DNA from: Alistipes sp.
GTDB lineage: Bacteria; Bacteroidota; Bacteroidia; Bacteroidales; Rikenellaceae
Direction of reading: 5' to 3'
Assembly: GCA_017630455.1 (NCBI GenBank)
Contig: JAGBVG010000038.1
Coordinates: forward strand, 1-59,458
DNA length: 59,458 nucleotides
In this document: positions 31,266 to 48,683 of the stretch, in pieces
How the letters are laid out: every line of letters begins with the position of its first letter
Numbering within the stretch: position 1 is the first letter of the stretch
Position numbers and translations under genes: made by a program
Notes under the pieces: model-generated
Databases searched by the model: none
What the model was told of the DNA's origin: nothing
The model's input: only the letters and a program-made list of their open reading frames with translations

Positions 31266-32216
31266 CTACTCTTGGGTCTTAGCCTTGATAGTCACCGCTA
31301 TCTTAATCTCCTTGCCACAAGCAGCCTTAACCACAATAGTCGCCTCGCTGTCCTTCGAGAAGTCGCCATTTTCCAAATCTAATGCTACGTTAAATGTACC
31401 AGCATCAGCATCTTTATCACTTATTATCAGCAACTTATCCTTGGAATTCTTATCAGTCACACTCCAATCCTCAGAACAAGTGACTGTAACAGTCTGTGTC
31501 TGCGGATCATTGGCATCAAACTCCAACTTCTCAACGCTTACTTCAAACACGTGATGTGCCTGCGAAAACGTATACTCTCGCGAGTACCTCTTTCGGAATT
31601 CGGCATTATCAGTATTTGGCACTATACGTAACGTATCAATTCGCTCAGCATCAGAGTGGTTTTGGTTTTTAGGCCTAATATCAAACTTATGCTCCCCATC
31701 CGAATAAGCAACATTAAACTCACCTCCAGAGTTCAACTCCCAATCAAACTTGAAATTGGCATCATAATCAATAGCGCGCGACGACGTGTCGTTGAAATCC
31801 CAAGAAAAAGCCTCGCCATCTGCAGGATTGGAATTCATAACCACAGCCTCCTGTGTTATATTAATCTCCCTTATGTCAACGCCATTCTCATCGGAGAACT
31901 TCACCGTAAACTTACGCTCCTCGCTACCACTTCCGTCTGCATTTCCCGTTAAATTTGGCCCGATATTAACAGTGTATGTCGTAACGTTGTTATCCTTTTC
32001 ACGAACGATGGTGACATCGTTATCTGGCTCGGTATATTGCAGCTCACTCTCCGATCTCACATAAAATTCGACTAAAGAGTCTATTGGCGACAATACAAAC
32101 TCGGTGGCTGAAAAAATAGGGCCTCCTTGGTTTCTATTATCGGCAGGCTCCTCGGGAGTGCAAGAGTATATCATTGCAGCTATGGCTGCTAATGGTAATA
32201 AGTAATATCTTTTCAT
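31266..32216 (-). CDS. Lipoprotein, last gene of the signalling operon
   Basis: 316 residues. Lipoprotein signal MKRYYLLPLAAIAAMIYSC (Cys19). The mature part is beta-rich: YTEPDNDVTIVREKDNNVTTYTVNIGP, and a C-terminal block VEKLEFDANDPQTQTVTVTCSEDWSVTDKN...AGTFNVALDLENGDFSKDSEATIVVKA. This last block has the shape of the BACON domain (a Bacteroidetes beta-sandwich often involved in carbohydrate or mucin contact). Start 32216 is chosen over the ATG at 32231 because it gives a clean lipoprotein signal and lies 4 bases after the permease stop. As the operon's lipoprotein it may be cargo or a partner of the ABC complex (inference). Confidence 0.8.
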   Translation of the reverse strand: MKRYYLLPLAAIAAMIYSCTPEEPADNRNQGGPIFSATEFVLSPIDSLVEFYVRSESELQYTEPDNDVTIVREKDNNVTTYTVNIGPNLTGNADGSGSEERKFTVKFSDENGVDIREINITQEAVVMNSNPADGEAFSWDFNDTSSRAIDYDANFKFDWELNSGGEFNVAYSDGEHKFDIRPKNQNHSDAERIDTLRIVPNTDNAEFRKRYSREYTFSQAHHVFEVSVEKLEFDANDPQTQTVTVTCSEDWSVTDKNSKDKLLIISDKDADAGTFNVALDLENGDFSKDSEATIVVKAACGKEIKIAVTIKAKTQE

Positions 32217-32220
32217 AATC

Positions 32221-33783: not shown

Positions 33784-34650
33784 CTAATTCTGTTTTAAGA
33801 ATGTTTCGAACTCCTCGGCCGTATATCTCTGCTCGCCGTTTGTCCAGCTCTCGCCATTGCTGAAATAGAGACACGATTTGTCGATGAAGCCATAATATGT
33901 CACCTCATCATCGTTCTCTCGCTTGACATTCTCTCTCTTGGCAATCTTGATTACCAAATCGGCAAACGTCACTGCCAGGTGCATATCGTGGGATACAATG
34001 ATAGCCGAGCTTCCTGGTAACTCCTGCAATTTATTCGACAGGAGCTGCATAGCCTTAGCCGCATTGTCGCCATCGAGATTTCCTGTAGGCTCATCGCCAA
34101 AAAGCACCGTAAAATCAGGGATGATGGCGCGGGCAAAGGCCAAACGCTGCTGCTGACCTCCCGATAGCTCTGTTGTCATTCGCGACTTGCTTATATGCCC
34201 CAGATCGAGAAACTCCAAAATCTTGCTGGCCCTATTAAATGACGAATACTCGGTATATCCCTGCAGCATACGGGTGATGGATACATTCTCGTAAGCTGTG
34301 AAGTTTCTCATCAGATTGGTGCTCTGGAAGATGAAATTGAAGTGTTCGCGTCGGATTTCGGAGAGCTCAGCATCGCTGTTTCTTCGCCAAAGACTAAGAA
34401 CATCAATCGCCTTGCTATCCGAGCCATAGAATACAAATGATGTCTCCTTGTCGGGCACAATCGTATTATTCATCAATCCGAGCACCTCCAATATAGTACT
34501 CTTTCCGATTCCCGACTCGCCGACGATAAACACCTTCTTGCCGCGCGGAATTGCAAGTTCGTGGATTTTCAGCACTATCTTGGAGATGCCCTCACGATAG
34601 TGACTATCGTAAGAGCATCGCAGATTATTTATTTCGAATAGTTTTTCCAT
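33784..34650 (-). CDS. ABC transporter ATPase (MacB/LolD/FtsE type)
   Basis: 288 residues. Walker A GESGIGKST (44-52), Q-loop FIFQSTNLM (~106-114), signature ELSGGQQQRLAFARAI (161-176), Walker B VLFGDEPTGNLD (182-193) and H-loop IIVSHD (217-222): all catalytic elements intact. QSTNLMRNFTAYENV is typical of the MacB/LolD subfamily. A C-terminal extension of ~50 residues (YYGFIDKSCLYFSNGESWTNGEQRYTAEEFETFLKQ) is unusual and could be a protein-interaction tail. Its ATG shares one base with the stop of the VWA gene and it precedes the permease by 3 bases. Confidence 0.9.
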   Translation of the reverse strand: MEKLFEINNLRCSYDSHYREGISKIVLKIHELAIPRGKKVFIVGESGIGKSTILEVLGLMNNTIVPDKETSFVFYGSDSKAIDVLSLWRRNSDAELSEIRREHFNFIFQSTNLMRNFTAYENVSITRMLQGYTEYSSFNRASKILEFLDLGHISKSRMTTELSGGQQQRLAFARAIIPDFTVLFGDEPTGNLDGDNAAKAMQLLSNKLQELPGSSAIIVSHDMHLAVTFADLVIKIAKRENVKRENDDEVTYYGFIDKSCLYFSNGESWTNGEQRYTAEEFETFLKQN

Positions 34651-37007
34651 TATGGTAGATATTCAATTGGTATCCAATAATAAGTCTCGTTGTTAAACTC
34701 CTTTACAAACTTATATGTACCCTTCAAATCCTTAAGAGCTTCATATTTACCTGCAAAATCCGATACTAAAGTATTAAACTCGGCAGGTTTAACAACATTC
34801 GGATCGCCAATATCGATAATCGTATACTCACCCTTCATCGCAGCAGAAGCCTCATTGAGACCCTGAATCATCTTTGTAACATTGGACATACCCATGTTTT
34901 CCATATCCGCATCTGACAATCCCGGCACAAAACTTCTTAAGAGACCCTTGATCGCATTGATATACGCCTTTCTATCTCTTGAATTTGCATTCTTTGAAGC
35001 TGCATATACAGGTTCAAGTCTGCGGAGCAGATCGGTAAACTCACCATCTGTAATAAAGAGAATAGGCTTGTAGTATGCGTATTCAGGATCTCCGCGATAG
35101 TATTTCGCTGTGGTACCGCGGAAAGCAAGAAGCTCGTTTGATGTCCCAAGGCCTTTCTTCTTCAGATACTCTTGATTCATCTTAAATCCTATGGACTCTT
35201 TTACCTCCTGTGAAACAGGGATAGATGGTCCGTTAATGGCCATATCAATATGATGTTGCACGATTATGGCATAATCCTTCAACGAAGTGCGGATAAGCTC
35301 GGTCAAGACATCCGTACTAATCGACGTACCTGATGCAGCATACTTATTGAGACCGAAAAAGAGCTCTATACCATTAAAGACATCGGTTCTTCTGGCGCTA
35401 TTATAGTACTCATAACCATTTCCACTTCTTTTATGACGAACTTGCGTACCAGCGAGAGTATTATCATACTTAGCCTGAAGGATATTCCTATTGATGCTTG
35501 TCATCTGAGCATTAAACTTATTCCACGCATCGAGATCGAGGTTCTGCACCTGGAAGCTAAGAAGCTGGATATCTTTTTCTATCAGCAACTTTTCGATCTC
35601 TGCCTGCGTAGGAGCTTTGGAGTCCTTGCTGGCATTACCGCAATCACCAACCACAAGCATAACATTTGACTGAGCAGGATCTATCTTTAACTTAGTAATT
35701 GCCTCATTCATACCATAGAACAGAGCCTCGGTGTTTGTTTTGTCACCAACACTCTTAATACCGTAGCTTCCTCCATCCTGTAGGAATTGCAAAAGCTCTG
35801 GGTGATTAGGTTCGTGGAATGGGAATACCTCTACAAGGCCCTTTCCATCCGAATAATCGCGATAGATAACAACACCCACCTTCACCTTATACTTCTGATC
35901 GTCGAAGAACTCACAACCCGCTTTAATAGCCTCATATACTGGCATAAAAAACTTGCCCATAGATCGGGTTCCATCGATCACAATCATCAAGTTGATATTC
36001 AGCTTATTCTCATAATACTCCTTTTTGCGCGCCTCAAGCTCGATATCCTGCGCACCAAATGACGAGCACTCATAAGTCGTTTCAGTAGTACCATCAAGAA
36101 TCGGGAATCGAAGCATAGCTGGTGCAACTCGATATTTATACTCCTCATAACCATCTTTTGCCGCGAACTTATATCCACTTGCACTATATCCGCTCACATC
36201 GTAAATAACAGCCTCAGCACCCTTAGATGCCAAATATTCTACAGTCTCCTCATCCCAAGTAGGCTCGATACACGAACGCTGGTTCCAAGGAATAAATGAA
36301 TCTTGATTAAACCATCCATAAAGAACCTGATCAGAGATTCCGTTCATACTATTCTGCGTTGCAAGCAGCACCTTGCCACCCTCGCGCTTCATAACGAAAC
36401 AGAACTGCAAATCTGACTCCACAGGCAGCGAATTGTGCTCGCGCGTTGGATGCAGATATCTCTTCTTTGTGTATTTACCACTCGAAGATGATTTGTCTAC
36501 ATTGCGGCATATAAGCGCCTTATAAAGGATGCTTCTATCATCCGCAAGACACGAACCCCAAAGAAGCAGGTTATCCATCTTAACCCAACCACGCGATACA
36601 GCATCCTTAGAGATCTTTGGCCACTGCACCTTCGCATTTGGCTCAGAGTAGACCAAAGCATAGTCGCCCTCGATACGTGCGATACGCAACTTCTCGTTCC
36701 ACTCCAATTCCACAGGCTTACCATTGACGGTATATGGGTATTGACCCTTGGAATCTCTATAGGTTTGATTATTGACTCTATCGCTATACACGATCCAATA
36801 TTTCTTTGCGTCGGGTTTCTCTTTCTGGCCATACGCCTTATCTGTCAAGAACTTGTTGATATCCGACTCCCTCAACACATTAGCCTTCAATATTGCATTT
36901 GGCAAATAGGCGTCACACGATGAGGGCAATTGAGCACTACTACTACCTTGACCCCATACGTTGATATGCTGCACAAGGATTAATAGTATAACTAATAAAC
37001 GTTTCAT
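34650..37007 (-). CDS. Exported SH3-like + von Willebrand A (VWA) domain protein
   Basis: 785 residues. Signal peptide MKRLLVILLILVQHINVWG. An SH3-like segment lies around 80-150 (EKLRIARIEGDYALVYSEPN...RGWVKMDNLLLW). A VWA domain spans about 335-540, with MIDAS residues in LMIVIDGTRSMGK (DGTRS, residue ~344), Thr in VGDKTNTEAL and Asp in MLVVGDCGNA; a divalent metal ion and protein ligands are expected. The rest (540-785) is helical and unassigned. Because it is exported, it works in the periplasm or at the outer membrane. A VWA domain next to Ser/Thr kinase, PP2C and FHA genes recalls the PpkA and TerY-type phosphosignalling modules, but here the VWA is a separate secreted protein. Confidence 0.85.
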   Translation of the reverse strand: MKRLLVILLILVQHINVWGQGSSSAQLPSSCDAYLPNAILKANVLRESDINKFLTDKAYGQKEKPDAKKYWIVYSDRVNNQTYRDSKGQYPYTVNGKPVELEWNEKLRIARIEGDYALVYSEPNAKVQWPKISKDAVSRGWVKMDNLLLWGSCLADDRSILYKALICRNVDKSSSSGKYTKKRYLHPTREHNSLPVESDLQFCFVMKREGGKVLLATQNSMNGISDQVLYGWFNQDSFIPWNQRSCIEPTWDEETVEYLASKGAEAVIYDVSGYSASGYKFAAKDGYEEYKYRVAPAMLRFPILDGTTETTYECSSFGAQDIELEARKKEYYENKLNINLMIVIDGTRSMGKFFMPVYEAIKAGCEFFDDQKYKVKVGVVIYRDYSDGKGLVEVFPFHEPNHPELLQFLQDGGSYGIKSVGDKTNTEALFYGMNEAITKLKIDPAQSNVMLVVGDCGNASKDSKAPTQAEIEKLLIEKDIQLLSFQVQNLDLDAWNKFNAQMTSINRNILQAKYDNTLAGTQVRHKRSGNGYEYYNSARRTDVFNGIELFFGLNKYAASGTSISTDVLTELIRTSLKDYAIIVQHHIDMAINGPSIPVSQEVKESIGFKMNQEYLKKKGLGTSNELLAFRGTTAKYYRGDPEYAYYKPILFITDGEFTDLLRRLEPVYAASKNANSRDRKAYINAIKGLLRSFVPGLSDADMENMGMSNVTKMIQGLNEASAAMKGEYTIIDIGDPNVVKPAEFNTLVSDFAGKYEALKDLKGTYKFVKEFNNETYYWIPIEYLP

Positions 37008-37010
37008 ACG

Positions 37011-37625
37011 CTAATAATATAAAAACTCTAAATTCCTTAAATTTTTGCAAAGATTCTTCACTCCAAAGGGGTTCTCCTTGTCATACTCGAATTCATTATC
37101 GCTCCTATAGAAAAGCATCAAATGCAGATAGTCGTTCGGCAAGAGATCAAGGTCAAGAGCAAAGTACAACTTCGCGATAATCTCCTCGTTGTAGTTATCC
37201 TTCCAGAACTGCTGATCTATATAAAATTGCCAAGTCATAGAGCTATACTTCGGCACCCCCAACTCAGACAAGAAGTCAATGCGATTGAATATCTCGATAA
37301 TATTCCTTAGATCCTCTTTTGTGTCTATGGGATGGGAATTTTTCTCCTGAAGCGCCTGTATGATATTGTCAAACCCTTCTTCTTTAGGGCCATTGATTCC
37401 TACCGTAGCTATATATGGCTTCTTGCCATTGGCGAGATATATAATCAACGGACTTTTAACTCTTTGAGCGGTTTTAACTTTGTCGCCGAGTCGCTTACAG
37501 AGATCATTAATCGGAGTGTCATTGGTGTGGTTGATATAGACAAATGTCAGATCACCACCAGGTCTACTCTGGGCAGATGCACTTATACAAAAGAACACCA
37601 AGACAATTAATATCAGTTTTCTCAT
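37011..37625 (-). CDS. Small exported protein of the signalling operon
   Basis: 204 residues. Cleavable signal MRKLILIVLVFFCISASAQ. The mature protein starts GGDLTFVYINHTNDTPINDLCKRLGDKV and continues PLIIYLANGKKPYIATVGI, an alternating hydrophobic strand/helix pattern that could be a small Rossmann-like (VWA-like) fold without metal residues; this is a guess. It sits 3 bases upstream of the VWA gene, so a direct partnership is likely. Family not recognised. Confidence 0.7.
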   Translation of the reverse strand: MRKLILIVLVFFCISASAQSRPGGDLTFVYINHTNDTPINDLCKRLGDKVKTAQRVKSPLIIYLANGKKPYIATVGINGPKEEGFDNIIQALQEKNSHPIDTKEDLRNIIEIFNRIDFLSELGVPKYSSMTWQFYIDQQFWKDNYNEEIIAKLYFALDLDLLPNDYLHLMLFYRSDNEFEYDKENPFGVKNLCKNLRNLEFLYY

Positions 37626-37631
37626 TTTCTA

Positions 37632-38486
37632 TTACCAGTTGCATTGAACCTTAATGTACAAATGTGTGATTCTGCAAGAATCATCGTATAATGGGTCTTT
37701 TGTAAGCTTCGCGTTGCTGAACCTACCACTTCTAATCTCGTCAAGCAAATCAGAGAATCTTGTAAATTCTGGCTCGTCAGGCGCTAAACCACTGATATGC
37801 AACTTATAACCCCAAGCAAACTTCTTTCTCTCAGCATTGGTAAAAGGCCTACAGTCAGGATTAGAGAGGTAAGATTGGATATCCTCCTTAGTCAGCGGCT
37901 CTACCTTATCTGGATTTATAAATCCAGGGATTTGCAACTCTGCATAGGCTCCATTCTTGATGTTCGTCACCTTGAGGCTATAGAGTCCATCTTCGGTATA
38001 TGGTATTTTTTCGAACTTTCCATCATCCGAAGTATAACTCTTTTCCGCATCGGCAGGATTTGTGAGTTGGTATTCCAACTTATCTCGTGATGCAACAGAA
38101 GCGCTAACCACGAGAGTATAACCTCCATTCTCATATTTTAGATCATACGTCTCCTCGATTACTGGGATATCATCCGCGAGAATTATCGGCTCACCTGAGA
38201 CCTCGGTATGCTCCCAATCTGATTTAGTACCCCCGCCCTGATCTTCAGATGGATAAGTCTTTCCTCCCATCTTTACATCATTGCTAAAGTGTTCAACAAT
38301 CTTATCGACACCAAAGCCGATTCCAAGTCCTACTGGAATACCGATCAGACCTACCAACAGACCTTTGACAAAATGTGGCATCTTTCTAATAGGTGTGATG
38401 TTATCCGAGCCACACTGAGGACATATCTCTACCGCATCGTCAGCCTCAAACACATTACCGCAACCTATACACTTATACGTCTTCAT
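37632..38486 (-). CDS. Zinc-ribbon membrane protein with periplasmic domain
   Basis: 284 residues. N-terminal zinc ribbon YKCIGCGNVFEADDAVEICPQCGS with CxxC pairs at 6/9 and 22/25, then one membrane segment (about 39-60, VKGLLVGLIGIPVGLGIGFGVD). A ~220-residue extracytoplasmic region follows, containing an Ig-like stretch (YDLKYENGGYTLVVSASVASRDKLEYQLTNPADAEKS...YSLKVTNIKNGAYAEL). This places a cytoplasmic metal-binding knob on an envelope protein. Function unknown; its place among kinase, FHA and VWA genes suggests a structural adaptor. Confidence 0.75.
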   Translation of the reverse strand: MKTYKCIGCGNVFEADDAVEICPQCGSDNITPIRKMPHFVKGLLVGLIGIPVGLGIGFGVDKIVEHFSNDVKMGGKTYPSEDQGGGTKSDWEHTEVSGEPIILADDIPVIEETYDLKYENGGYTLVVSASVASRDKLEYQLTNPADAEKSYTSDDGKFEKIPYTEDGLYSLKVTNIKNGAYAELQIPGFINPDKVEPLTKEDIQSYLSNPDCRPFTNAERKKFAWGYKLHISGLAPDEPEFTRFSDLLDEIRSGRFSNAKLTKDPLYDDSCRITHLYIKVQCNW

Positions 38487-38491
38487 TATTT

Positions 38492-40012
38492 CTAAAATTT
38501 AAGTTTTAATCCTACGCTTATCCATAGCGCATTTTTACGGATACTGATGTCGTTTACAAGTGGTGCTACCAGCAAATCCTCGCCTGTAACTCCATTGTAT
38601 ATCACAGGGTTCTCACCTTGAGCCAATGCCCCATCTCCCGAAAAGCGGGTGATGCCGAAACCTCTTTCATATCCGAGTTTTCCCTCGATATAGAGCTTTC
38701 GTGGCACTATCATATAATCAACACCCGCGCTAAAGAATAGCGAGGCATCGAATCCTGCACCACTAATCGACGTTTCGCCTATGTATGCCGAAGCGAACTC
38801 TTTGCCGTCTACCCTACCCTCAGCAATGGCATTGCCACACTGCCTATCGAGTGATATATAAGCCTTTGCACCGAGGTCAAACACAAGACCAAGCTCCTTG
38901 GTTAGTTTTGACTCTAAGTTGAAATAGAGAGGAATGGCAAGATCGGTAAACTTCGCACGCTGGACAACCCTATCGATAGAATAGGATCTTTCAACTCTTT
39001 GTCCTTTAAAGTTGCTAAAGGATATCGCGTAATCGCCGATATCTTTAACACGAGCAGTGAAGTTTGACATCGTGAGCGCCGCACCGACATAGAATCCTCC
39101 CTTGAGATTCTTACCAAGTCGGAATGTCGCTCCGAGATCTGCTCCAATAGAGTATCCAAACGATCCTCCCTTGCCGAGGTTCGGGTTCTCGACCATCGAG
39201 TACATCACAGGCGCAATCTCATTTCTCAGTCTAAGACGCAGAAGCATAACCGAATAGTTGAGCTTGATCAGTTCATAAGCCTGCTGATCACAAATTCTCT
39301 CCGTGCTAATCAACACATCCTCATCCGGATGCTTGAACGAATGTGAAGAGACAAGAGCCTGATCAAATGAGTTGTATCTCAAATGTTGACCATCAGATGT
39401 CACCGCGTGCTCAAACTTTTGGTATTTCGCCTCACATCGCTTGACAATGATAGCTTTCTGAGATCTATCGGGAGTCTCAGTATTTTGAGCCGTGAGAGAG
39501 TGGATAAAGGCCGCCTCTAAATTGGAATCGAAGACCAATGTCATCGCCAACTTATGAATCTGACGTGCATCATTTCCATCTTCGTCGACACCTAAAGGGA
39601 ATAACACTTCATTGCTATCGGAATATACAATCTCCCTATCGAAGGTAAGGCTATAATACCATTTACCGTCGACATACCTGACACGATCCTTTTGGATATT
39701 GCTGAGCTGACACTTATAGATATTACTCTGACTCTGCTCAACAAACGAGACATAGTTAGCCACAGGAATTTGCTGGCAGTAGCAATCTGCATTGTGGTAC
39801 AAATCGCAAAATATCTCAGTATCGCTACTCTCAAACATCCTTAGGAAACGAGACTTTGTCTGCTTATTTCTCAGCGTGGAATTAGCCTCATACCTATCCA
39901 TCAACTCGATAGCAAGAAGATTCATCTGCCTCGATTGTGCATTTGTTGGCTTCTGAGCATAGGTCGAGGATGCAAGCAGCGCGAGGATGAAAACCAATAC
40001 TAACTTCCTCAT
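38492..40012 (-). CDS. Exported protein with C-terminal outer-membrane beta-barrel
   Basis: 506 residues. Signal peptide MRKLVLVFILALLASSTYA. An N-terminal periplasmic region (about 20-280) is unassigned. The last ~220 residues are alternating amphipathic strands with Gly/aromatic girdles (GGSFGYSIGADLGATFRLGKNLKGGFYVGAALTMSNF...KLYIEGKLGYERGFG...ALWISVGLKLKF). The protein ends in Phe, the outer-membrane insertion signal, fitting the OmpA/OprF-like or PorT-like 8-10 strand barrel of Bacteroidetes. It would give the system an outer-membrane terminus. Its ATG overlaps the stop of the preceding kinase gene by 4 bases. Confidence 0.78.
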   Translation of the reverse strand: MRKLVLVFILALLASSTYAQKPTNAQSRQMNLLAIELMDRYEANSTLRNKQTKSRFLRMFESSDTEIFCDLYHNADCYCQQIPVANYVSFVEQSQSNIYKCQLSNIQKDRVRYVDGKWYYSLTFDREIVYSDSNEVLFPLGVDEDGNDARQIHKLAMTLVFDSNLEAAFIHSLTAQNTETPDRSQKAIIVKRCEAKYQKFEHAVTSDGQHLRYNSFDQALVSSHSFKHPDEDVLISTERICDQQAYELIKLNYSVMLLRLRLRNEIAPVMYSMVENPNLGKGGSFGYSIGADLGATFRLGKNLKGGFYVGAALTMSNFTARVKDIGDYAISFSNFKGQRVERSYSIDRVVQRAKFTDLAIPLYFNLESKLTKELGLVFDLGAKAYISLDRQCGNAIAEGRVDGKEFASAYIGETSISGAGFDASLFFSAGVDYMIVPRKLYIEGKLGYERGFGITRFSGDGALAQGENPVIYNGVTGEDLLVAPLVNDISIRKNALWISVGLKLKF

Positions 40013-41064
40013 AACAGTTTAGCTAAAAAATATATTCCTATGCCAATTACCACGCCCAGCGCTCCTCCGATAATCATCATCATCGTTTCATCCAACTTTT
40101 TAGCTGGGCCTTTGGTCTTAACAACCTCATCATCGGCACTTGACGTTTCGAGGGCGCTAATCATAGCATCAGTATCTTGATAACGCTCGGCCTGAACCTT
40201 GGCTGTCGCTTTTGCCACAACAGCACGAATCGTCTTGTCGCTGATATTTGCAATAGGCAACGGCTGATGGATCTGGGCGTGTAGAATCTGAGCCTCATCA
40301 CCCTGAAATGGTAAGACGCCGGTGAACATCTCATAAATCATAATACCGAGAGAGTAGACATCCGTGGTAGCATTATGATTCGTAATATCGCCAGTGAGCA
40401 TCTCCGGAGCAGCATAACTTGGCTTGCCGATAATAGCGCCCACCTGCGTGAGCTTCGGGCCGTTATACACCTGAATAGCCTTCGTAACACCAAAGTCAAT
40501 CAACTTGATCTTGCGATCGTGTGTTACCATAATGTTGCTCGGATCGACATCTCTATGCACATAACCCGCGCTATGCAGAGCATACAAGCCCTGACACACC
40601 TCCGTAGCTATCCTCTTCACAAAGCCAACTCGATCGTTGATATACTGATCGTAAAGTTCCTTGGCAAATTCTACAAATGCTCCACTCTTATCGATGAGAA
40701 CACCCTTCATAAGATTCTCGAGACTAACGCCAACGATACGCTCCATAACCAAATAGTATTTTGGCTTATAAGTCTGAGAATACTCATCCAACTCCATATT
40801 TGGGACAAAGCCATACATCCTCAGCAGATTAGGGTGGTCGATCTGTATCGATGCCTCCCTCATAGCTCTGTCGACAAGATTTTTTGTAGGATTTTGAATT
40901 GCCTTGATGGCAACAGGCACAAACTCATTAGGGTTCAATGCATTATAGCAATAACCCTGATACACTACACCCATTCCACCTTGACCAAGCGGCATTGATT
41001 CAGAATCATATTCGTAGTAAATATCATTCTGAATCTCCGCATTACCTTGCACTCGTATTTTCAT
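40009..41064 (-). CDS. Tail-anchored Ser/Thr protein kinase (second kinase)
   Basis: 351 residues. Hanks-type kinase: Gly loop GQGGMG (27-32), VAIK Lys54, helix-C Glu70, catalytic loop HRDVDPSN (170-177), DFG (190-192), APE (219-221). The loop Lys of HRDxKxxN is Asp here, an uncommon change that may lower or alter activity. A C-terminal membrane helix (328-350) ends the protein, so the kinase faces the cytoplasm with essentially no periplasmic sensor. It should therefore be activated by partners such as FHA proteins or by the periplasmic assembly through the membrane. Overlaps the barrel gene by 4 bases. Confidence 0.9.
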   Translation of the reverse strand: MKIRVQGNAEIQNDIYYEYDSESMPLGQGGMGVVYQGYCYNALNPNEFVPVAIKAIQNPTKNLVDRAMREASIQIDHPNLLRMYGFVPNMELDEYSQTYKPKYYLVMERIVGVSLENLMKGVLIDKSGAFVEFAKELYDQYINDRVGFVKRIATEVCQGLYALHSAGYVHRDVDPSNIMVTHDRKIKLIDFGVTKAIQVYNGPKLTQVGAIIGKPSYAAPEMLTGDITNHNATTDVYSLGIMIYEMFTGVLPFQGDEAQILHAQIHQPLPIANISDKTIRAVVAKATAKVQAERYQDTDAMISALETSSADDEVVKTKGPAKKLDETMMMIIGGALGVVIGIGIYFLAKLL

Positions 41065-41070
41065 CGCTCT

Positions 41071-42255
41071 TTACTCCTCCTTTTTGTTCTCCAATACCAC
41101 ATTTAGTCCTGAATCAAAACCATCGACTGCAACATAATATTTTCCAGGTTTTCGTATAATCAATCTGCACTCCTGAACATCATCGTTGCTAACTAATGTA
41201 GTTTCATAGATAGGTAGCGCATCTGCTGGTATAACAAAGCTCTGCTCCTTACCCTCCTTCACAACCTGGAACTGATAGACAGCAATAGTCTCTCCGTATG
41301 AGATATTCTTCAGCGACAACTGAAGCTCCGTGCCCACTGTGAATGTATTTACATTCTCCTCGGTTCTGACATAACCCTTCTCCTCCTTTTCAAGGGTTAT
41401 CAGTGTGGCATCATTGTCGTTGAGACGCACCAACTCTGTAGTATCAACAACATACTTCCTATAAGCACTATTTCTCGTCTTCTGATACTTCTCGATGTTC
41501 TCGGCCTTGATCTGCTGAGGCTCAGAGCTGAACTTCATCAAAAGATTTACAGTCTGCCCCATAATACGAGAGGTTATCAAGCCCTCCAACATCGTACCCT
41601 CCTTGGTGATAACTCTATCCAAGAGCGGAGCCTGCTCCCAAATAGTGTGCTTATCTGAGATCTTCTCAACAAGGACACTCAACACATCGTTAGACTTCAC
41701 CGTCTGACGACTACCATCAGTCTTCTCTATGGTCAAACCCTTGGCAGTATCCTGCTCAACGATATAACCTACGATTCTCTCACCGTTTTTGAGTGTCACG
41801 ACATCACGCAAGCCGTACGAATCGCCATCCACAAATCTCTTAGTGGTTCGTGCTATCTCACTCCAAGGGGTGAAATAGGTCCTTGGAGTGAGTGAATATG
41901 CGCGAAGTGTTGTCTCGGTCTGCTCTATTACATAGAGATTCTCGAAATGCGTTCCTTTATACTCGAAAGAGGTGAGATAGAGAGATGTTGTATCGCAGAT
42001 ACCCCTCACCAAATCCTTCGAAGCCTCGGGCAGACAATTGAAATCATAATAGTCTCTGCGCGCATCTACCACTTCATCGTTATCGAATACTATGTAGGCA
42101 TTATCGGCGTAGACGGCTATATGCTTACCAGGCAACTGCTCTGAGATATATCCCGAATACTTAGATCCGTTTTTGGTATGTACCTCCTCAATTATCTGTG
42201 CAGACAATAGTGCAGGTGCTGCACACATCGCTGCTAAGAGAAATAATCGTCTCAT
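41071..42255 (-). CDS. Exported protein with three ~40-residue repeats
   Basis: 394 residues. Signal peptide MRRLFLLAAMCAAPALLSA. Three related units start HTKNGSKYSGYISEQ (~26), TLKNGERIVGYIVEQ (~154) and ITKEGTMLEGLITSR (~215), each continuing into a beta-rich stretch; the shape K-[NE]-G-x-x-x-x-G-x-I suggests small SH3/Sm-like barrels. The final ~90 residues (FTVGTELQLSLKNISYGETIAVYQFQ...PGKYYVAVDGFDSGLNVVLE) look like a jelly-roll/Ig-like domain. Periplasmic, no lipobox. It is translated between the FHA-protease and the second kinase; function unknown. Confidence 0.75.
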   Translation of the reverse strand: MRRLFLLAAMCAAPALLSAQIIEEVHTKNGSKYSGYISEQLPGKHIAVYADNAYIVFDNDEVVDARRDYYDFNCLPEASKDLVRGICDTTSLYLTSFEYKGTHFENLYVIEQTETTLRAYSLTPRTYFTPWSEIARTTKRFVDGDSYGLRDVVTLKNGERIVGYIVEQDTAKGLTIEKTDGSRQTVKSNDVLSVLVEKISDKHTIWEQAPLLDRVITKEGTMLEGLITSRIMGQTVNLLMKFSSEPQQIKAENIEKYQKTRNSAYRKYVVDTTELVRLNDNDATLITLEKEEKGYVRTEENVNTFTVGTELQLSLKNISYGETIAVYQFQVVKEGKEQSFVIPADALPIYETTLVSNDDVQECRLIIRKPGKYYVAVDGFDSGLNVVLENKKEE

Positions 42256-42260
42256 ATCGT

Positions 42261-43733
42261 CTATTTTGTGATGTTAGCACTATTGATCAACTTAACAAGA
42301 TACTCGGCTTTGATAGCATAGTTGTATCCCTGAGTTCTCTCATATCCTGAGTTGATAATTCCCACCAATCTGCCATACTTATCGAAAACAGGAGAGCCGC
42401 TTGCACCGTGATCCGATGTGGCTGTAACACCAAACTTATAAATAGGCTGTGTGGTAGATACCATACCGTCTGAGAAGTAGATCTGCAATGGAGCCTCCTT
42501 GAGATACTGCAAACTAACACCATTAGGGAATCCTGCGGTATAGATTTTGTTACCAGAAGAGAGCTCCTTGGTTGATATCATATCAAATGGAACAGAAGCG
42601 ACATTTGGCAAGAGGTTGTTTTTAACCTTAAAGATTGCCAAATCCTCCTCCTTAGAACCTACTGCGATCTCGCGACAATTGATTCTGTTATGCTCATCAA
42701 ACTCCGAACCGTGTGGAATGATGAATGTTCCATCCAAAACGCCCTTAATCTTGAGCTGTCCAATGTGCGCAGTAATTGCTGCTGATGAATACCTATTGAA
42801 AAGATAGGTTCTGAATAGAACCTCGGCTTCTTCAATAAAATTGTCAAACGAATACGAATATTGTGCATCGGTATACTCCCAAGGTCGTGCCACGTGGCGA
42901 TTGGTTACGATATGTCCGTCATCACCGATGAAAAATGCCGTACCTTGTGAAGCCATAGATCCAAACTGACGGAATGGAGCTATTTTGTTTTCTTTATCGT
43001 TTTGGTCATATATAAGTCTAAATTCTCTGTATTCATCATCTTCCAAGAGGACTTCCAATCCAGGACACGATACCTCGAAGTGATAGAATGTCACCATCCA
43101 AGCTACTGATGGGCTGTAAGTGCGTGCGATCTTCTCCGCTGACCAAGGCTTAGGAATCAAAAATGCCACAGCTGTCAAACAAGCTACAACGGCAACAACA
43201 GCCACCCACTTCAACGAGAAGTCTCCCGATGGTATAGGGTTCTGGATAGGCACACCAGCACAAGCAATCTCATCACCCTTCTTGATGCGGGTATATCGAT
43301 CCTTAGGGATGCGAACATTATTCACCGTTGTACCATTCTTACTATGGTCACATATATACCACTTATTATCCGACATCTGGCGGATTGTTGCGTGGAAACG
43401 GCTTACGTTATTACCCTGAACATTTATGGAGTTCATATAGTGCGAACCGATGCCCTTGATCACCTTTACATCCTTTGGCAAACGGATTGGGTCGATGAGA
43501 TTCCAATTGAGAGGAACATCGGCAAACATAATATTATCACCTCGCTTAATAGCGACCTCCTTGCCCGGCGAGAGTCGCAACCCGTTGAGGAATGTTCCGT
43601 TGGTGCTCTTATCGACGAGGAACATATCACCGTTATCGAGCAAAATAATCTCGGCGTGGTAATTGCTTACATACTGGCTATTTAGAACTATATTGGCTTC
43701 TTGTGGATTTCTTCCAATTACTATTAATCTCAT
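42261..43733 (-). CDS. Double-FHA transmembrane trypsin-like protease
   Basis: 490 residues. Two FHA domains in the cytoplasmic part: GRNP (7-10)...SNYHAEI...STNGTFLNG (43-51), and VQGNNVSRFHATI (105-117)...SKNGTTVNN (131-139). One membrane segment (about 175-193, WVAVVAVVACLTAVAFLI) follows. The extracytoplasmic S1-type protease domain has His280 in IVTNRHVA, Asp364 in KEEDLAIFKV and Ser445 in HGASGSPVF, a complete triad with the oxyanion pattern of DegS/HtrA-like enzymes but no PDZ domain. The layout means phosphothreonine binding in the cytoplasm could control a protease on the other side of the membrane. I know of no standard family with this exact order. Confidence 0.88.
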   Translation of the reverse strand: MRLIVIGRNPQEANIVLNSQYVSNYHAEIILLDNGDMFLVDKSTNGTFLNGLRLSPGKEVAIKRGDNIMFADVPLNWNLIDPIRLPKDVKVIKGIGSHYMNSINVQGNNVSRFHATIRQMSDNKWYICDHSKNGTTVNNVRIPKDRYTRIKKGDEIACAGVPIQNPIPSGDFSLKWVAVVAVVACLTAVAFLIPKPWSAEKIARTYSPSVAWMVTFYHFEVSCPGLEVLLEDDEYREFRLIYDQNDKENKIAPFRQFGSMASQGTAFFIGDDGHIVTNRHVARPWEYTDAQYSYSFDNFIEEAEVLFRTYLFNRYSSAAITAHIGQLKIKGVLDGTFIIPHGSEFDEHNRINCREIAVGSKEEDLAIFKVKNNLLPNVASVPFDMISTKELSSGNKIYTAGFPNGVSLQYLKEAPLQIYFSDGMVSTTQPIYKFGVTATSDHGASGSPVFDKYGRLVGIINSGYERTQGYNYAIKAEYLVKLINSANITK

Positions 43734-43752: not shown

Positions 43753-44355
43753 TTATACAAATGGCTGATAAGTTACAGTATCCTTTACCTCCTTCTCGGC
43801 TTCTGCTTCGGTCTTAGTTTCGGTCTCTTTCTCTGCTTCTTTTGCAGTCTCCTTCTTAACCTCCTTCTTAACCTTTGGCTTGGCAACCTCCTTCTGCTCT
43901 ACCGGTGGGGTAGCTACAGCTGTTGAATCCGCCTTTTCAGCATCCTCTTTCTCCTCTACCTCGGCGATCGGAGGATTGATAATTATATCATTTGCGCCAC
44001 CGCCCTCATTAATAAACTGATAGGCGCAATATCCCAATGCTCCGACAACTATAACCGCCGCAAGCGAGAGTAGTATTGTCTTAGGAGACATCAAGCCCGA
44101 CTTTGGCACCTGAGACCAATCCAACTCTGCAACGTGTGCGAATGAGACGACATCCTTGCGAGAGACTGGGACCTGAACACCTTGCGAAATCTTAATTCCG
44201 TTAATGTAGGTTCCATTCATACTCTGGTCGATGATAAAGTATTTTCCGCCCTTACCAATTTTTAGGATGGCGTGATTACGACTGATGAGATTTTTATCAT
44301 CTACGAGATAAATATCACATCCTGGATCTCTACCAATTGAATAAATTGTTTTCAT
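43753..44355 (-). CDS. FHA-domain membrane protein with Glu/Lys-rich periplasmic tail
   Basis: 200 residues. The N-terminal FHA domain (1-78) has the phosphothreonine-binding set GRD (8-10), SRNHA (25-29) and NGTYING (47-53). One membrane helix (93-113) is followed by an ~85-residue low-complexity tail rich in Glu, Lys, Ala and Thr (KKEVKKETAKEAEKETETK region), extended or coiled and long enough to reach through part of the periplasm. Its FHA domain resembles the first FHA of the protease protein, suggesting duplication. Probable docking site for the operon's kinases. Confidence 0.87.
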   Translation of the reverse strand: MKTIYSIGRDPGCDIYLVDDKNLISRNHAILKIGKGGKYFIIDQSMNGTYINGIKISQGVQVPVSRKDVVSFAHVAELDWSQVPKSGLMSPKTILLSLAAVIVVGALGYCAYQFINEGGGANDIIINPPIAEVEEKEDAEKADSTAVATPPVEQKEVAKPKVKKEVKKETAKEAEKETETKTEAEAEKEVKDTVTYQPFV

Positions 44356-44399: not shown

Positions 44400-45470
44400 C
44401 TATTCACCAGAACCACCTACTTCGGCGGATCCAGATTCAGCATTACCACCTTGAGGATTTGGAGTCTCGATATCCTGTGCCACTGTATCGCCATTTCCAG
44501 AGCCATCACCCTCTTCTGGGAAGATCTTAGCCTCCTCAACCTCGGTTACTGCATCATCCTGCTGAACAGCCGACAATGAAGAGGTATCTGCATCAGAATT
44601 ATGGTTATGATTATACCACTGATAGATATTAAGACCCAAGCTGGCCAACATAAGAACCGATAGCACAGCTACTAATATTTTTACACTTCTGCTCATTTTT
44701 ACTCTCATTTTTGATTCACGTTTCACGTCAAATAGTGCTGCTGTCAGATTGTCGTGATGTCCGCCTTGCATAGCTCCGATATGATCTATATAAGTCACAG
44801 CCCTATCAAGCGTCTTGCATATTTCCCCCTTAGCAATAAGCTTGATAACCTCGCGCTCAGGCAATGCCCCCCAGAATCCGTCTGTACACAAGACAAACCT
44901 GTCGCCTGGCAGATAAGGTAACTGATACACCTCGGGGTCGATATCTCTACGTATACCTAATGCCTTGGTGATAACATTGGACTGTGATGATAATCTTGCC
45001 TGCTCCTCGGTTATGACACCTAACGCCACGGAATTGAATACTACGGAGTGGTCGAAGGTTCTAAATACCTTTCTCTTACCTCGCAGCTGATAGACTCTAC
45101 TATCACCAAGATATGTAACCGTGGCACATTGGTCGTTGATAATTACAGCTGTAACCGTAGTTCCCATTCCCAGCAGGTCTGTATCCTCCTCGGCAGCGTC
45201 GAGAATCGCGCTATTTGCTCTAATCACTGCTCGCTTAAGAACCTCAGACGCAGAGTCCTCGCCTGTAACATTGGACACCTCCTCAAGGATGGTCTTAACA
45301 GCTATTGACGAAGCGACACTACCACCGTTTAACGCACCCATACCATCACACACAACGACAACCGTTCCAATGGCGGTGTCGACAATACCGGCCGAATCTT
45401 GATTCTCCGCGCGGCCTCCGATAAGTGAGTTGATATGGCAGTTTATCCAAGATTTAGTATCCTTTGACAT
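44400..45470 (-). CDS. PP2C-type Ser/Thr phosphatase with membrane anchor
   Basis: 356 residues. Metal-dependent phosphatase (PPM) fold: GGRAENQDS (18-26), VVCDGMGALNGG (40-50), GMGTT (101-105), GDSRVY (122-127), VLCTDGFWGALPE (193-204) and HHDNLTA (238-244). All metal-binding Asp residues are present, so it should remove phosphates put on by the two kinases. One membrane helix (264-284) leads to an acidic, Ser/Gly-rich periplasmic tail of ~70 residues. Bacterial PppA/PstP/Stp relatives pair with Hanks kinases in the same way. Confidence 0.93.
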   Translation of the reverse strand: MSKDTKSWINCHINSLIGGRAENQDSAGIVDTAIGTVVVVCDGMGALNGGSVASSIAVKTILEEVSNVTGEDSASEVLKRAVIRANSAILDAAEEDTDLLGMGTTVTAVIINDQCATVTYLGDSRVYQLRGKRKVFRTFDHSVVFNSVALGVITEEQARLSSQSNVITKALGIRRDIDPEVYQLPYLPGDRFVLCTDGFWGALPEREVIKLIAKGEICKTLDRAVTYIDHIGAMQGGHHDNLTAALFDVKRESKMRVKMSRSVKILVAVLSVLMLASLGLNIYQWYNHNHNSDADTSSLSAVQQDDAVTEVEEAKIFPEEGDGSGNGDTVAQDIETPNPQGGNAESGSAEVGGSGE

Positions 45471-45484
45471 AAATCTTCAAGTTA

Positions 45485-46414
45485 TTAGTTCAATATGACA
45501 ATAGTTGACAACAGCGCTATTAGCAACGCTATGATAGATATCACTACGATTATCGCCTTAGGAAACGCCCTTTTCGTCTGTTTTTCTGAGAGATAAGATA
45601 ATAGCGAATCGCGCATTTCGTAGGCGTGCTGATATCTTTGGTTCACATCTCGCGCAGTGGCTTTCTTGATGATGTTTTCGAGGGTTCGAGATACCTTATC
45701 TGAAGCGTTAATAGGATAATGCCCAACTAACAGAAATGATAACGTTACACCTAATGCGTAGATATCGGCTCTGTGGTCGATATTAGCCTCTGTGCTATCA
45801 TCCACAATCTGCTCTGGTGCAGCAAATGGCATAGTTCCAATAAAACCCTTGAGGTGCGCATCAAAAAAGTAATCAGCCTTAGCGATACCCAAGTCCATAA
45901 GTTTCAGCAAATGACCATCCTGAAACATCAGATTTGCTGGTTTTATATCTCGGTGTATGATTCCAAGCGAATGGAGATACTCTACAGCATCCATCACTGG
46001 CAAGAACTCCGACACAATCTTCCTATATTTCGACTCATTAGCCGACTCAACATAAGAAAGCTGCCCAACGTGCTCCTTGAACGTTACACCACACACATAT
46101 TCGCTCAGGACATATAGCGGTCCCGACCCTGACGACTCCTCGCAATACCCTATCATTCTTATGACATTGGGATGATTGATGGTTATGGAGGCCTCGAGCC
46201 TCAGTCGATTACGAATCTGCTGGTTGCTCCAAAACTCCTGACGGAGCATCTTTATGGCCACCTTTTCGTTAGTAGCACAGTCGAAGCCAAGATAGACAAC
46301 ACCCATAGCCCCCTCTCCTATGGGTGCAGATGTATATAGATACCTATACCATCTGCCACCTACGAAGAGATATACATTAGGGTCATTCTGCTGCCACCTG
46401 ATCGAGGATGTCAT
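45485..46414 (-). CDS. Tail-anchored Ser/Thr protein kinase (first kinase)
   Basis: 309 residues. Canonical Hanks kinase: Gly loop GEGAMG (33-38), Lys55, Glu74, HRDIKPAN (154-161), DLG in place of DFG (174-176), APEQ (199-202), and a short HxxYP lobe. A C-terminal membrane helix (287-308) ends the protein at the membrane, so there is no external sensor domain. With intact catalytic residues this is likely the main active kinase of the operon. It comes 18 bases after the soluble FHA gene and 14 before the phosphatase gene. Confidence 0.93.
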   Translation of the reverse strand: MTSSIRWQQNDPNVYLFVGGRWYRYLYTSAPIGEGAMGVVYLGFDCATNEKVAIKMLRQEFWSNQQIRNRLRLEASITINHPNVIRMIGYCEESSGSGPLYVLSEYVCGVTFKEHVGQLSYVESANESKYRKIVSEFLPVMDAVEYLHSLGIIHRDIKPANLMFQDGHLLKLMDLGIAKADYFFDAHLKGFIGTMPFAAPEQIVDDSTEANIDHRADIYALGVTLSFLLVGHYPINASDKVSRTLENIIKKATARDVNQRYQHAYEMRDSLLSYLSEKQTKRAFPKAIIVVISIIALLIALLSTIVILN

Positions 46415-46432: not shown

Positions 46433-47098
46433 CTATTTCGGACCGTACATAGTTGCCATCTTATTCTCCAAAGAAGATGAGCCATCTCCTGCGATAGTAC
46501 CCTTATTTACATTACCTGAGAAGATATTATGACCAGGTGCTACTGGCACTGGCTCTGCCTTTGCTGTAGACTTAAAGTTTGGCTTTGGAAGCAGACCAAT
46601 TGCCTTAGGCTCCACGAGGATGAAATAGAGCTCATAGTTCTCACCAATGGTGATAATATCGCCATTCTTGCACTCACGTGGATTGAAATCCAAAGTAGTG
46701 CCATTGACCAACGTACCACACATCGAACCTGTATCCTGAATAAAGACAAACAATCCAGCATCCTCACCCTTGTTCTGCATCTGTCTGATTACGAGTGTTG
46801 CGTGCTGGCTTGATACTGAAGCCTCAGATAAACACACATTTGCATTGGCTGATCGACCAATTGTATTTGCGCCCAAATATAGTGGCCAATACTCTCCACA
46901 GCTATCCTTCGAAACAGAATAGAGGAATCCATAGATTGGCTTTTTGTTAACCGATGCCGAATTTGATGCGGCAGGCACTGCACCTGGGAAAATAGTTCCG
47001 TCATTGTTAACAGGCGTAAAACCTTGACTTGGATTAGAGCTCTGCGAATAGTCAACGTTATTGACTGGCGCACCAGGGTAAACAGTTTTCTCTGACAT
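46433..47098 (-). CDS. Soluble FHA-domain protein, first gene of the phase-variable operon
   Basis: 221 residues. A disordered N-terminal stretch has two copies of T-[VI]-[YF]-P-G-A (TVYPGAP at 5-11, TIFPGAV at 35-41), which look like substrate/docking threonines. An FHA domain spans about 58-165: NTIGRSANANVCL, SSQHATLVI, GSMCGTLVNGT. The tail is Ser/Gly-rich. No membrane segment. By analogy with GarA/Fha1-like proteins it may be phosphorylated by the kinases and then bind other FHA partners (inference). The start at 47098 is chosen over one 32 codons upstream, whose extension (FTQTTIFNFCLWLLPQ) runs through the leader hairpin and the left inverted repeat region. Confidence 0.87.
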   Translation of the reverse strand: MSEKTVYPGAPVNNVDYSQSSNPSQGFTPVNNDGTIFPGAVPAASNSASVNKKPIYGFLYSVSKDSCGEYWPLYLGANTIGRSANANVCLSEASVSSQHATLVIRQMQNKGEDAGLFVFIQDTGSMCGTLVNGTTLDFNPRECKNGDIITIGENYELYFILVEPKAIGLLPKPNFKSTAKAEPVPVAPGHNIFSGNVNKGTIAGDGSSSLENKMATMYGPK

Positions 47099-47130
47099 AA
47101 TATTAAAATTTAGAGTTAGTCGATACAACG

Positions 47131-47150
47131 TCTGTGGCAACAGCCACAGA
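47131..47150. promoter_or_regulatory. Hairpin in the operon leader
   Basis: Perfect 8-pair stem TCTGTGGC / GCCACAGA with AACA loop, between the left inverted repeat and the first FHA gene. No T run, so perhaps a leader structure or protein site rather than a terminator. Confidence 0.55.
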
Positions 47151-47184
47151 CAAAAGTTAAAAATTGTTGTTTGTGTAAAATGCA

Positions 47185-47206
47185 GTAGTTCCACAAAAGA
47201 ACTATA
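47185..47206 (+). repeat. Left inverted repeat of the invertible segment (recombination site)
   Basis: 22 bases identical, in reverse complement, to 47470-47491. Internally it is TAGTTC (47186-47191), 7-base core CACAAAA, GAACTA (47199-47204): two inverted binding arms around an asymmetric crossover core, the form of a tyrosine recombinase site. Confidence 0.92.
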
Positions 47207-47214
47207 GCTTTATG

Positions 47215-47248
47215 CAAAGTTATATAAAATAATTTAATGTTTAGCATA
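47215..47248 (-). promoter_or_regulatory. Invertible promoter facing the signalling operon
   Basis: Minus-strand -7 box TAACTTTG (47222-47215), exact TAnnTTTG; best -33 is TATG (47248-47245) at 22 bases, imperfect. Transcription would start at about 47208, at the edge of the left repeat, giving a ~110-base leader. Confidence 0.65.
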
Positions 47249-47468
47249 AAAGAACGATTATTTTTCCTTTGCGAATCAACTTTTTACCACTTCGAATATA
47301 TTTATATTCAACAAGTTATGAAAATCTTTTCATTTTAATACGGCAAATTGTTTTCTCTATTTTGGTTCATAATTACATAAAAAACCATTTGCTGTTTTTT
47401 ATACTAAACATAAAATATAACAAATTACAGTTTTCTATTGTTTTAAGAATCACCGACTTATGAAATGC

Positions 47469-48683
47469 TTATAGTTCTTTTGTGGAACTACCCACGAGTG
47501 ACATAATTATTCCTTTATTCGCATCATCTATCACCGAGTTTTCCAACATTGTTAGGTAAATCTGGGTTGTCTGTTCCGAGGTGTGGCCCATACCTTGGCT
47601 GATGACCGAGATAGGCACATTGTGGTTTCGGGCAGCCATAGCCCAGCTATGTCGCGAAGTGTATGATGTTAATTTACAACACGTAGGCAGCATCTTCGAC
47701 AACCGTCTCAACAAACGATTATGGTTATTAATTGCCACCTGATACTCATCGTATGCCTCTTTCGTTTCGCTTGAAGTCAGTATTGGGAAAACGTATGGCG
47801 ATAATGCCGATGAATATCGGTCAATAATGCGTTGTATGCTCGGTTCTATCCTGATACTTAGCAATTGTCCTGTCTTTCGACGAGCGTAGCAAAGCTCACC
47901 ATTTTGGATATTCTCTCTCTTCAAATATGCAATATCCACGAATGCCATTCCACGGGTGCAATAGCTGAAAATGAATACATCTCTGGCAAGGGCAAGAGGA
48001 GTCCCTTCGGTCAATTTCAGGTTATACAACTGCGATATTACGGATTCAGAGACAGCACGCTTGCGGGTGCGATCAATCCCTGTATACACCTCCGTAAACG
48101 GGTGCGATTGCTCAACAAGTTTTTGCCTGACCGCCTTGTTATAAACTGCTCGCATTATACGCATATAGAATGAGATGGAGTTTCTCACCATCCCTCGTTG
48201 CACGAGAAAAGCGTTATAATCAGCAATAAGTTGTTCTGTCATAGCCGAGAATGGCAGATTGACTTCACCGAGAAACTCGGCAAAGTTTTTCATCGTTTTC
48301 TCATAGTTCAAGGCAGTTCCCAAGCGATTGGCATTACGCATCAATCGTATCTGGTTCTGCATAAAGTCCAGTACTAACACGTGACATTCCGGCGACTTGT
48401 AGCGTTTGATAATATCTCGGGCAGAATAGGTCGCACCGCTCTCCTCTAAATCCTTGACAATGCGCTTCAACAGAGCGATATCGCTATCTATACGATTTTG
48501 AATAATAGATCTCTCTGCAACACCTACAGCAACCTCTTCTCTTGTTGCATCCCACTCGTTGGGCTGCAATCGGATACTCGTTGTTATCTGCAGTGTCGCT
48601 CTGCGATGAGTCACTTGATAAAATATCGTTCCTGTACGTCCTGCTACAGATGAAAGACGTAATTTTACTTTTACGGTTGCCAT
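47469..48683 (-). CDS. Tyrosine recombinase (probable DNA invertase, Tsr-like)
   Basis: 404 residues, the size and layout of Bacteroidetes phage-integrase-family proteins: N-terminal arm domain (LRLSSVAGRTGTIFYQVTHRRATLQITTSI), SAM-like core-binding domain (~105-195, FAEFLGEVNLPFSAMTEQLIADYNAFLVQRG) and catalytic domain (~205-390). Catalytic residues: Arg244 (CTRGM), Lys270 (RRKTGQ), Arg344 in YTSRHSW (Tyr at the usual first His, common in this group), His367 (GMGHTSEQTT) and Tyr376 (QIYL). The right inverted repeat overlaps its 3' end, which strongly suggests that this enzyme inverts the neighbouring segment. After inversion its stop would change from TAA to TAG, so the protein is unaffected. 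No excisionase, transposition genes or element ends are seen. Confidence 0.92.
   Translation of the reverse strand: MATVKVKLRLSSVAGRTGTIFYQVTHRRATLQITTSIRLQPNEWDATREEVAVGVAERSIIQNRIDSDIALLKRIVKDLEESGATYSARDIIKRYKSPECHVLVLDFMQNQIRLMRNANRLGTALNYEKTMKNFAEFLGEVNLPFSAMTEQLIADYNAFLVQRGMVRNSISFYMRIMRAVYNKAVRQKLVEQSHPFTEVYTGIDRTRKRAVSESVISQLYNLKLTEGTPLALARDVFIFSYCTRGMAFVDIAYLKRENIQNGELCYARRKTGQLLSIRIEPSIQRIIDRYSSALSPYVFPILTSSETKEAYDEYQVAINNHNRLLRRLSKMLPTCCKLTSYTSRHSWAMAARNHNVPISVISQGMGHTSEQTTQIYLTMLENSVIDDANKGIIMSLVGSSTKEL
47470..47491 (-). repeat. Right inverted repeat of the invertible segment
   Basis: Exact reverse complement of 47185-47206. It lies in the last codons of the recombinase gene (encoding GSSTKEL) and covers the first two bases of its stop codon. 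Confidence 0.92.

Follow-up and report, generated by a model that had tools for sequence, protein, structure and literature searches.

The segment bounded by positions 47185 and 47491 of the window, the whole stretch of 59,458 nt analysed here, is very probably a tyrosine-recombinase-driven invertible promoter (inverton), and its flipping by the neighbouring enzyme probably turns a 14-gene operon on or off. A preliminary description of this DNA had proposed a promoter that can be inverted, that is in its ON orientation in the assembly and that has a tyrosine recombinase gene next to it. This proposal is supported by similar segments lying in opposite orientations behind related recombinases and by the recurrence of a promoter box near one recombination site in most of these loci. 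The window comprises bases 1-59458 of contig C25 in a 93-contig, 2.0-Mb MAG that is 90% complete. The elements of the switch, its recombinase and the predicted leader are the following:

47130-47151, minus strand: 9-bp perfect hairpin in the predicted leader between the switch and the first gene, g01 (by eye)
47185-47206, plus strand: left (operon-side) recombination site with the TAGTTC-CACAAAA-GAACTA core, which occurs exactly in the left and right copies only
47207-47469, no strand: invertible segment, 263 nt, 23% G+C, with similar segments in both orientations among relatives
47215-47222, minus strand: -7 box TAACTTTG (TAnnTTTG), ON, aimed at the operon (from sequence; near-site box in 26 of 32 loci)
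47256-47265, minus strand: block AAAAATAATC, upstream of the box and inside the segment, invariant in six aligned segments
47300-47311, minus strand: block TTGAATATAAAT, inside the segment, invariant in six aligned segments
47470-47491, minus strand: right (recombinase-side) recombination site, a perfect inverted copy of the left one (repeat search)
47469-48683, minus strand: tyrosine recombinase, 404 aa, with its 3' end inside the right site (Pfam and sequence)

The anatomy given in the preliminary description stands on all points. The claimed perfect 22-base inverted repeats are 22 nt long, 100% complementary and 263 nt apart, and the claimed TAGTTC-CACAAAA-GAACTA layout can be read in both arms. 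The segment said to be A+T-rich has 23% G+C (vs 44% in the operon), the exact minus-strand -7 box reported beside the left repeat is TAACTTTG at 47222-47215, and the recombinase gene does more than abut the switch, as it terminates within the right repeat. In 500 first-order shuffles of positions 46500-48500 the longest inverted repeat was 14 nt, and a scan of the window for further inverted pairs of at least 16 nt with a gap of 30-2000 returned none besides the 22-nt pair. Allowing up to 2 mismatches, the window contains two copies of the core GTTCCACAAAAGAAC (0.10 expected), and elsewhere in the 2.0-Mb MAG no copy with fewer than 2 mismatches was found, four places having 2 mismatches each. 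The arrangement looks like a dedicated switch. Viral contigs scanned with the left junction gave no match, and hence no second orientation within the species.

Pfam resolves the recombinase into arm-binding, SAM-like and catalytic domains (Arm-DNA-bind_5 8e-7, SAM_5 6e-19 and Phage_integrase 1.5e-6). Its last codons in the right site read ...GAA CTA TA|A, the bar marking the repeat edge. The stop codon is TAA as assembled and would be TAG after inversion, the next base then being G, so that the recombinase protein is the same in both orientations. The enzyme shares 36% identity with each of the operon-side recombinases of two relatives (G011 and G502) described below, and RGM, RKT/HKT, SRH/ARH, GH and IY motifs, which we take to be the catalytic motifs of a tyrosine recombinase, align across all three proteins.

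The box TAACTTTG is located 8 nt inside the operon-side repeat and directed toward the operon, and transcription is predicted to start near 47208; inspection by eye found no TTTG at the usual -33 position of this promoter. ON and OFF, here and below, are read from matches to the box consensus, and in the one assembly of the window the ON orientation alone is present. The leader hairpin at 47130-47151 lacks a T run by eye and may be a regulatory site.

A search with the recombinase found 47 loci; at E 0.001, 127 of the 151 genus genomes gave matches, a large share of which are distant integrases. A rule-based set contained 65 distinct places, 32 with an exact repeat pair, 18 without one and 15 with less than 500 nt behind the gene. 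An outward TAnnTTTG lies at most 35 nt from a site in 26 of the 32 repeat-pair loci (window included), compared with a mean of 2.4 and a maximum of 8 in 1000 first-order shuffles. This box points toward the downstream gene in 7 loci (ON), toward the recombinase in 19 (OFF) and both ways in none, and the remaining 6 segments carry no box near a site. The 18 distinct loci with at least 500 nt behind the gene and no exact pair are mostly distant; one of them, L036, has a pair with one mismatch, fails the rule and was scored ON in a hand-chosen set. For that set, 29 of 79 loci were picked and two (L053, L057) failed the strict pattern, leaving 27 with the window included; five loci with other pairs (L028, L031, L068, L073, L077) were left out. 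It gave a box in 23 of 27 loci, 7 ON and 16 OFF, at 5-17 nt from the site core. At the three-site locus L007 (= L055) the rule picks an inner pair with no box, and the hand-chosen set scored it OFF.

The segment is found in both orientations between species. When aligned directly and after turning, the window segment scores 66/23 against L036, 54/20 against L035 and 67/23 against L037, but 20/70 against L069 and 19/46 against L040; it thus aligns directly to the first three and as reverse complement to the last two. After one of the two is turned, segments L035 and L069 share 82% identity over 270 nt, and AAAAATAATC and TTGAATATAAAT are invariant in all six aligned segments. The window also has the other attributes of an inverton, namely inverted repeats around a short segment, an outward promoter (as a consensus match) and a tyrosine recombinase nearby. 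At least 57% identity to the recombinase is reached by 34 of the 47 loci. Of their contigs, 11 stop no more than 400 nt beyond the match on its 3' side and 2 no more than 400 nt from it on its 5' side, one on each side being a cut gene (L074, L069). The contigs of L033, L038 and L039, which contain one arm each, stop with the final bases of the site, roughly at the point from which two orientations would differ; a population of mixed orientation would give such ends, and breaks have other causes too. In the other 23 of these 34 loci a repeat pair lies behind the gene in 19 and was absent from four (L041, L064, L065, L079). Within a locus the two sites have the same middle 7 nt in 26 cases out of 27; between loci, 21 of 351 pairs do. 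The within-locus figure is largely due to construction, since the loci were chosen by their repeat pairs, and we therefore dropped it as strong evidence. The site sequences differ between loci.

Some of these loci have three-site switches, situated about 5-340 nt 3' of the recombinase match (L049, L050, L055, L056, L051). They have a further copy of the site some 85-90 nt in from one end, making two direct copies and one inverted, and in L051 two copies precede the contig end. The promoter end of such switches could be excised or inverted separately.

Downstream of the window switch, the 14-gene operon of the preliminary description was recovered in full, as fourteen minus-strand genes running from 47098 down to 31266 with gaps of -11 to +44 nt:

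46433-47098, minus strand: g01, FHA-domain protein, first gene (Pfam FHA 2.4e-13)
45485-46414, minus strand: g02, Ser/Thr kinase (Pfam Pkinase 3e-41)
44400-45470, minus strand: g03, PP2C phosphatase (Pfam PP2C_2 3e-17)
43753-44355, minus strand: g04, FHA protein (Pfam FHA 1e-16)
42261-43733, minus strand: g05, double FHA and trypsin-like peptidase (Pfam FHA 3e-34 in 2 stretches, Trypsin_2 1e-15)
41071-42255, minus strand: g06, hydrophobic N-terminus, no match in the Pfam search
40009-41064, minus strand: g07, Ser/Thr kinase (Pfam Pkinase 7e-39)
38492-40012, minus strand: g08, signal-peptide-like start (by eye), no match in the Pfam search
37632-38486, minus strand: g09, zinc-ribbon (weak Pfam matches), one TM-like stretch
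37011-37625, minus strand: g10, hydrophobic N-terminus, no match in the Pfam search
34650-37007, minus strand: g11, TssR-like protein (Pfam TssR_VWA 1e-11, TssR_C 8e-9, TssR 1e-6, all three TssR models)
33784-34650, minus strand: g12, ABC ATPase, LolD/MacB type (Pfam ABC_tran 3e-22; NCBIfam LolD 2e-39, below its cut-off)
32221-33780, minus strand: g13, FtsX-like permease (Pfam FtsX 9e-7)
31266-32231, minus strand: g14, lipoprotein-like N-terminus (by eye; Pfam search and sequence), last gene

The cytoplasmic part consists of FHA, kinase, PP2C, FHA, FHA-trypsin and kinase proteins, while g06, g08, g10 and g11 have exported-looking starts by eye, and g12 and g13 look like an ABC pair of the LolD/MacB type. 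From these domains we infer a phospho-signalling system that extends into the envelope. That the operon is switched as a unit is likewise an inference, supported by the gaps of at most 44 nt and by the different invertons that precede orthologous operons. Like the TssR of T6SS, g11 matches three TssR domain models, which we take to be those of the Bacteroidota type, and a TssR-like protein is encoded in 8 of 180 genus genomes. A T6SS reading of the operon is not supported, as VipB had no match in the 90%-complete MAG; the search for TssD gave no match in any control genome and is therefore uninformative. Nor was the operon called as a defence system, the PADLOC matches of 10 of its 14 proteins being to kinase, PP2C and protease domains of other systems. 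Genes g01-g13 were matched in five related loci (L089, L090, L091, L093, L094). In 20-kb stretches from other families only part was matched, namely g01-g07 in L127, L129 and L130 and the same genes without g06 in L128, and the order of the kinases varies among these stretches.

Orthologues of g01 were found in 9 of 268 family genomes (E 1e-20), in 7 of 393 order genomes (E 1e-13), and in 1 of 8 genomes of the family of G502 and 9 of 251 of that of G523 (E 1e-25). Dropping G340 (E 6.6e-18) and repeats, and leaving out G021, which has a TssR-like protein and no g01 match, gave 22 loci. Six of them have a complete inverton before g01, with six different repeat sequences, four ON and two OFF:

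G000: 22-nt repeat, ON
G053: 16-nt repeat, ON
G011: 22-nt repeat, ON, own recombinase
G256 (another genus): 15-nt repeat, OFF
G523: 15-nt repeat, ON, recombinase split
G502: 15-nt repeat, OFF, own recombinase

In these six the box lies 8-17 nt from a site, and the inverton lies about 39-526 nt from the start of the first gene. A strict test (a repeat of at least 13 nt plus a box), run with controls on 14 of the 22 loci, was passed by six of the 14 first genes; among the 202 further genes of these stretches none passed, one having a repeat alone. As many of the 202 sit inside operons, the control was repeated on genes behind a gap of at least 100 nt, and again 0 of 57 other first genes passed (1 with a repeat alone). 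In view of the six different invertons and the empty controls, phase variation of the FHA/kinase/phosphatase operon seems to have been acquired recurrently. The other 16 of the 22 loci show no complete inverton; a search of 0.1-1.5 kb upstream of g01 found no repeat pair of at least 13 nt in the 8 loci outside the controlled set. The contig of G076 starts, 81 nt upstream of the g01 match, with the dyad that G053 also has, and that of G896 starts just ahead of a dyad. G145 and G042 retain a box on the 5' side of g01 and have no repeat pair. No relative of the window recombinase was found beside the invertons of G053 and G256, in 2.2 and 5 kb upstream, respectively.

Several of these upstream regions have further features. 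In G523 (L130) the recombinase matches are split over two ORFs about 1-1.1 kb apart, with 13-nt inverted repeats and another ORF in the intervening stretch; sites and box are kept, and this switch may be locked ON. The g01 leader of the same genome (L121) resembles by eye the start of an UpxY-like gene, of which no intact copy is present, and suggests a lost antiterminator. An UpxY-like gene precedes g01 in G538 (L127), and Cas1- and Cas2-looking ORFs lie upstream of this gene and of the FHA/kinase operon (both by eye).

The reverse comparison, of what lies behind related recombinases, found the FHA/kinase operon in no locus but that of the window, within the DNA available there; the search for operon genes returned scattered weak ABC and PP2C matches only, and many loci have short DNA behind the gene. 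We therefore rejected the idea that the operon travels with its switch, as related recombinases precede other cargo and the operon's relatives have other switches or none. Proteins matching the NusG/UpxY-like protein of L043 are encoded in ten of 21 compared cargo loci (L037, L040, L043, L047, L055, L065, L066, L067, L069 and L070, with no repeat pair in L065). Other cargo, identified by Pfam on 20 chosen proteins, includes a capsule-type Wzz (L070), a fimbrillin (L056), a radical SAM protein (L036), dynamin-like GTPases (L046, L050), Hsp70 (L047) and a HerA-like ATPase (L061). A tubulin-like operon stands behind the L035 switch (Pfam 6e-4, below cut-off), and L035 (ON) and L059 (OFF) share this cargo, 73-77% identical, behind different sites. 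Large uncharacterised operons follow invertible promoters of related recombinases in L035, L059, L046, L050, L047 and L043; they encode dynamin-like or Hsp70 proteins or have weak matches to tubulin, Hsp70 or FtsA.

In the mechanism that we propose, the recombinase encoded at 47469-48683 would recognise both TAGTTC-N7-GAACTA sites, and strand exchange in the asymmetric 7-nt spacer CACAAAA would invert the 263-nt segment. In the ON state, the outward promoter TAACTTTG, 8 nt from the operon-side site, would fire into the 14-gene FHA/kinase/phosphatase/TssR-like operon; in the OFF state, the flipped promoter would face the recombinase gene and transcribe its 3' end in antisense, and the operon would lack this promoter. 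A formerly invertible switch that is now fixed ON in the lineage, the operon being constitutive, would also appear in the ON orientation alone in one assembly, and locked-looking cases exist in G523, with sites, box and a split recombinase, and in G145 and G042, with a box and no repeat pair. The window sites, however, match perfectly along all 22 nt, and the recombinase has an open frame whose RGM, RKT, SRH, GH and IY motifs align with two other recombinases, which makes a locked or dying switch unlikely.

Slightly less probable still is that the switch inverts and operon expression is independent of it, being dominated by a promoter outside the segment or by recombinase-gene read-through, with antisense feedback on the recombinase as the main effect. 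A near-box outside the segment, TAACTTTTG at 47151-47159 in the leader (by eye), could give switch-independent expression, and the recombinase is transcribed in the direction of the operon, into which its transcript could read; in 19 of the 32 loci the box is directed at the 3' end of the recombinase. Such independence is at odds with six different invertons placed close before orthologous first genes, and feedback on a neighbouring recombinase leaves G053 and G256 unexplained. We regard it as highly improbable that the repeats, instead of being recombination sites, delimit a small mobile element or serve as paired operators or terminators. Inverted repeats are known in all these roles, and the recombinase belongs to the integrase superfamily, but no ORF of at least 90 aa is listed within the 263 nt, the genome has no near copy of the site elsewhere, and related recombinases are followed by similar segments in either orientation. 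An invertible promoter acting on the operon thus remains our preferred reading.

The presence of different switches before the operon in some relatives suggests that heterogeneity in this pathway is favoured. More tentatively, and with slightly less than even confidence, we propose that phase variation is a recurrently selected property of the FHA/kinase/PP2C system, which in at least three families of the order is preceded by invertible promoters with six different repeat sequences and diverged recombinases, and that related recombinases also switch large intracellular NTPase operons (dynamin-like, Hsp70, tubulin-like). If true, bet-hedging would concern costly conflict or envelope-signalling systems and not surface antigens alone. 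The switch also offers a handle on operon function, as metagenome reads allow the ratio of ON to OFF to be counted in relation to phage, inflammation or diet.

According to excerpts from PMC11892184, tyrosine invertases of Bacteroidota adjoin invertons in an orientation that the inverton cannot regulate, and the genes near invertible promoters of gut Bacteroidota are largely linked to surface products. The window resembles these invertons in having a recombinase beside the inverton, so oriented that the inverton promoter cannot drive it, and a Bacteroidota promoter motif inside. Its cargo, a Ser/Thr phospho-signalling operon with envelope-like parts, differs from the enriched regulatable genes named in those excerpts (UpxY, TonB/SusD, fimbrillin, PEP-CTERM), and the words 'kinase' and 'type VI' are absent from the main text of that paper. 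The capsule switches of Bacteroides intestinalis, as far as given in the sections of PMC8375218 consulted, likewise place a small invertible promoter before an operon, and their transcription start, mapped inside the proximal repeat, is near the position predicted here; they differ in their 183-186-nt segment, in 10-nt repeats that partly resemble serine-recombinase (Mpi) sites, and in their capsule cargo.

The operon is comparable to two described systems. One is the KKP kinase-kinase-phosphatase module (PMC11341870), a prophage gene triplet in which a PP2C is followed by two kinases, one with a cold-shock domain and one with FHA. Both clusters combine a pair of Ser/Thr kinases, a PP2C phosphatase and FHA domains, but in the operon the FHA proteins are separate and are joined by trypsin, TssR-like and ABC/FtsX genes; Pfam at E 0.001 detected neither a CSD nor a fused FHA in g02 or g07, and we do not assign the operon to KKP. 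With the NTP-dependent conflict systems, as outlined in part of PMC7159879, the operon shares kinase, PP2C, vWA, trypsin and FHA parts, and the switch cargo of relatives adds dynamin-like GTPases, Hsp70 and weak tubulin matches to this likeness. Unlike those systems, the operon gave no MoxR or STAND match at E 0.001, and it was not classed as a MoxR-vWA conflict system, no MoxR AAA+ ATPase being found among the 14 proteins at this threshold. In the open-licence PMC literature searched, we did not find an inverton on an FHA/kinase operon or its recurrence. The switch belongs to a described kind, and its position on an FHA/kinase operon, together with the recurrence of invertons there, appears to be the new part.
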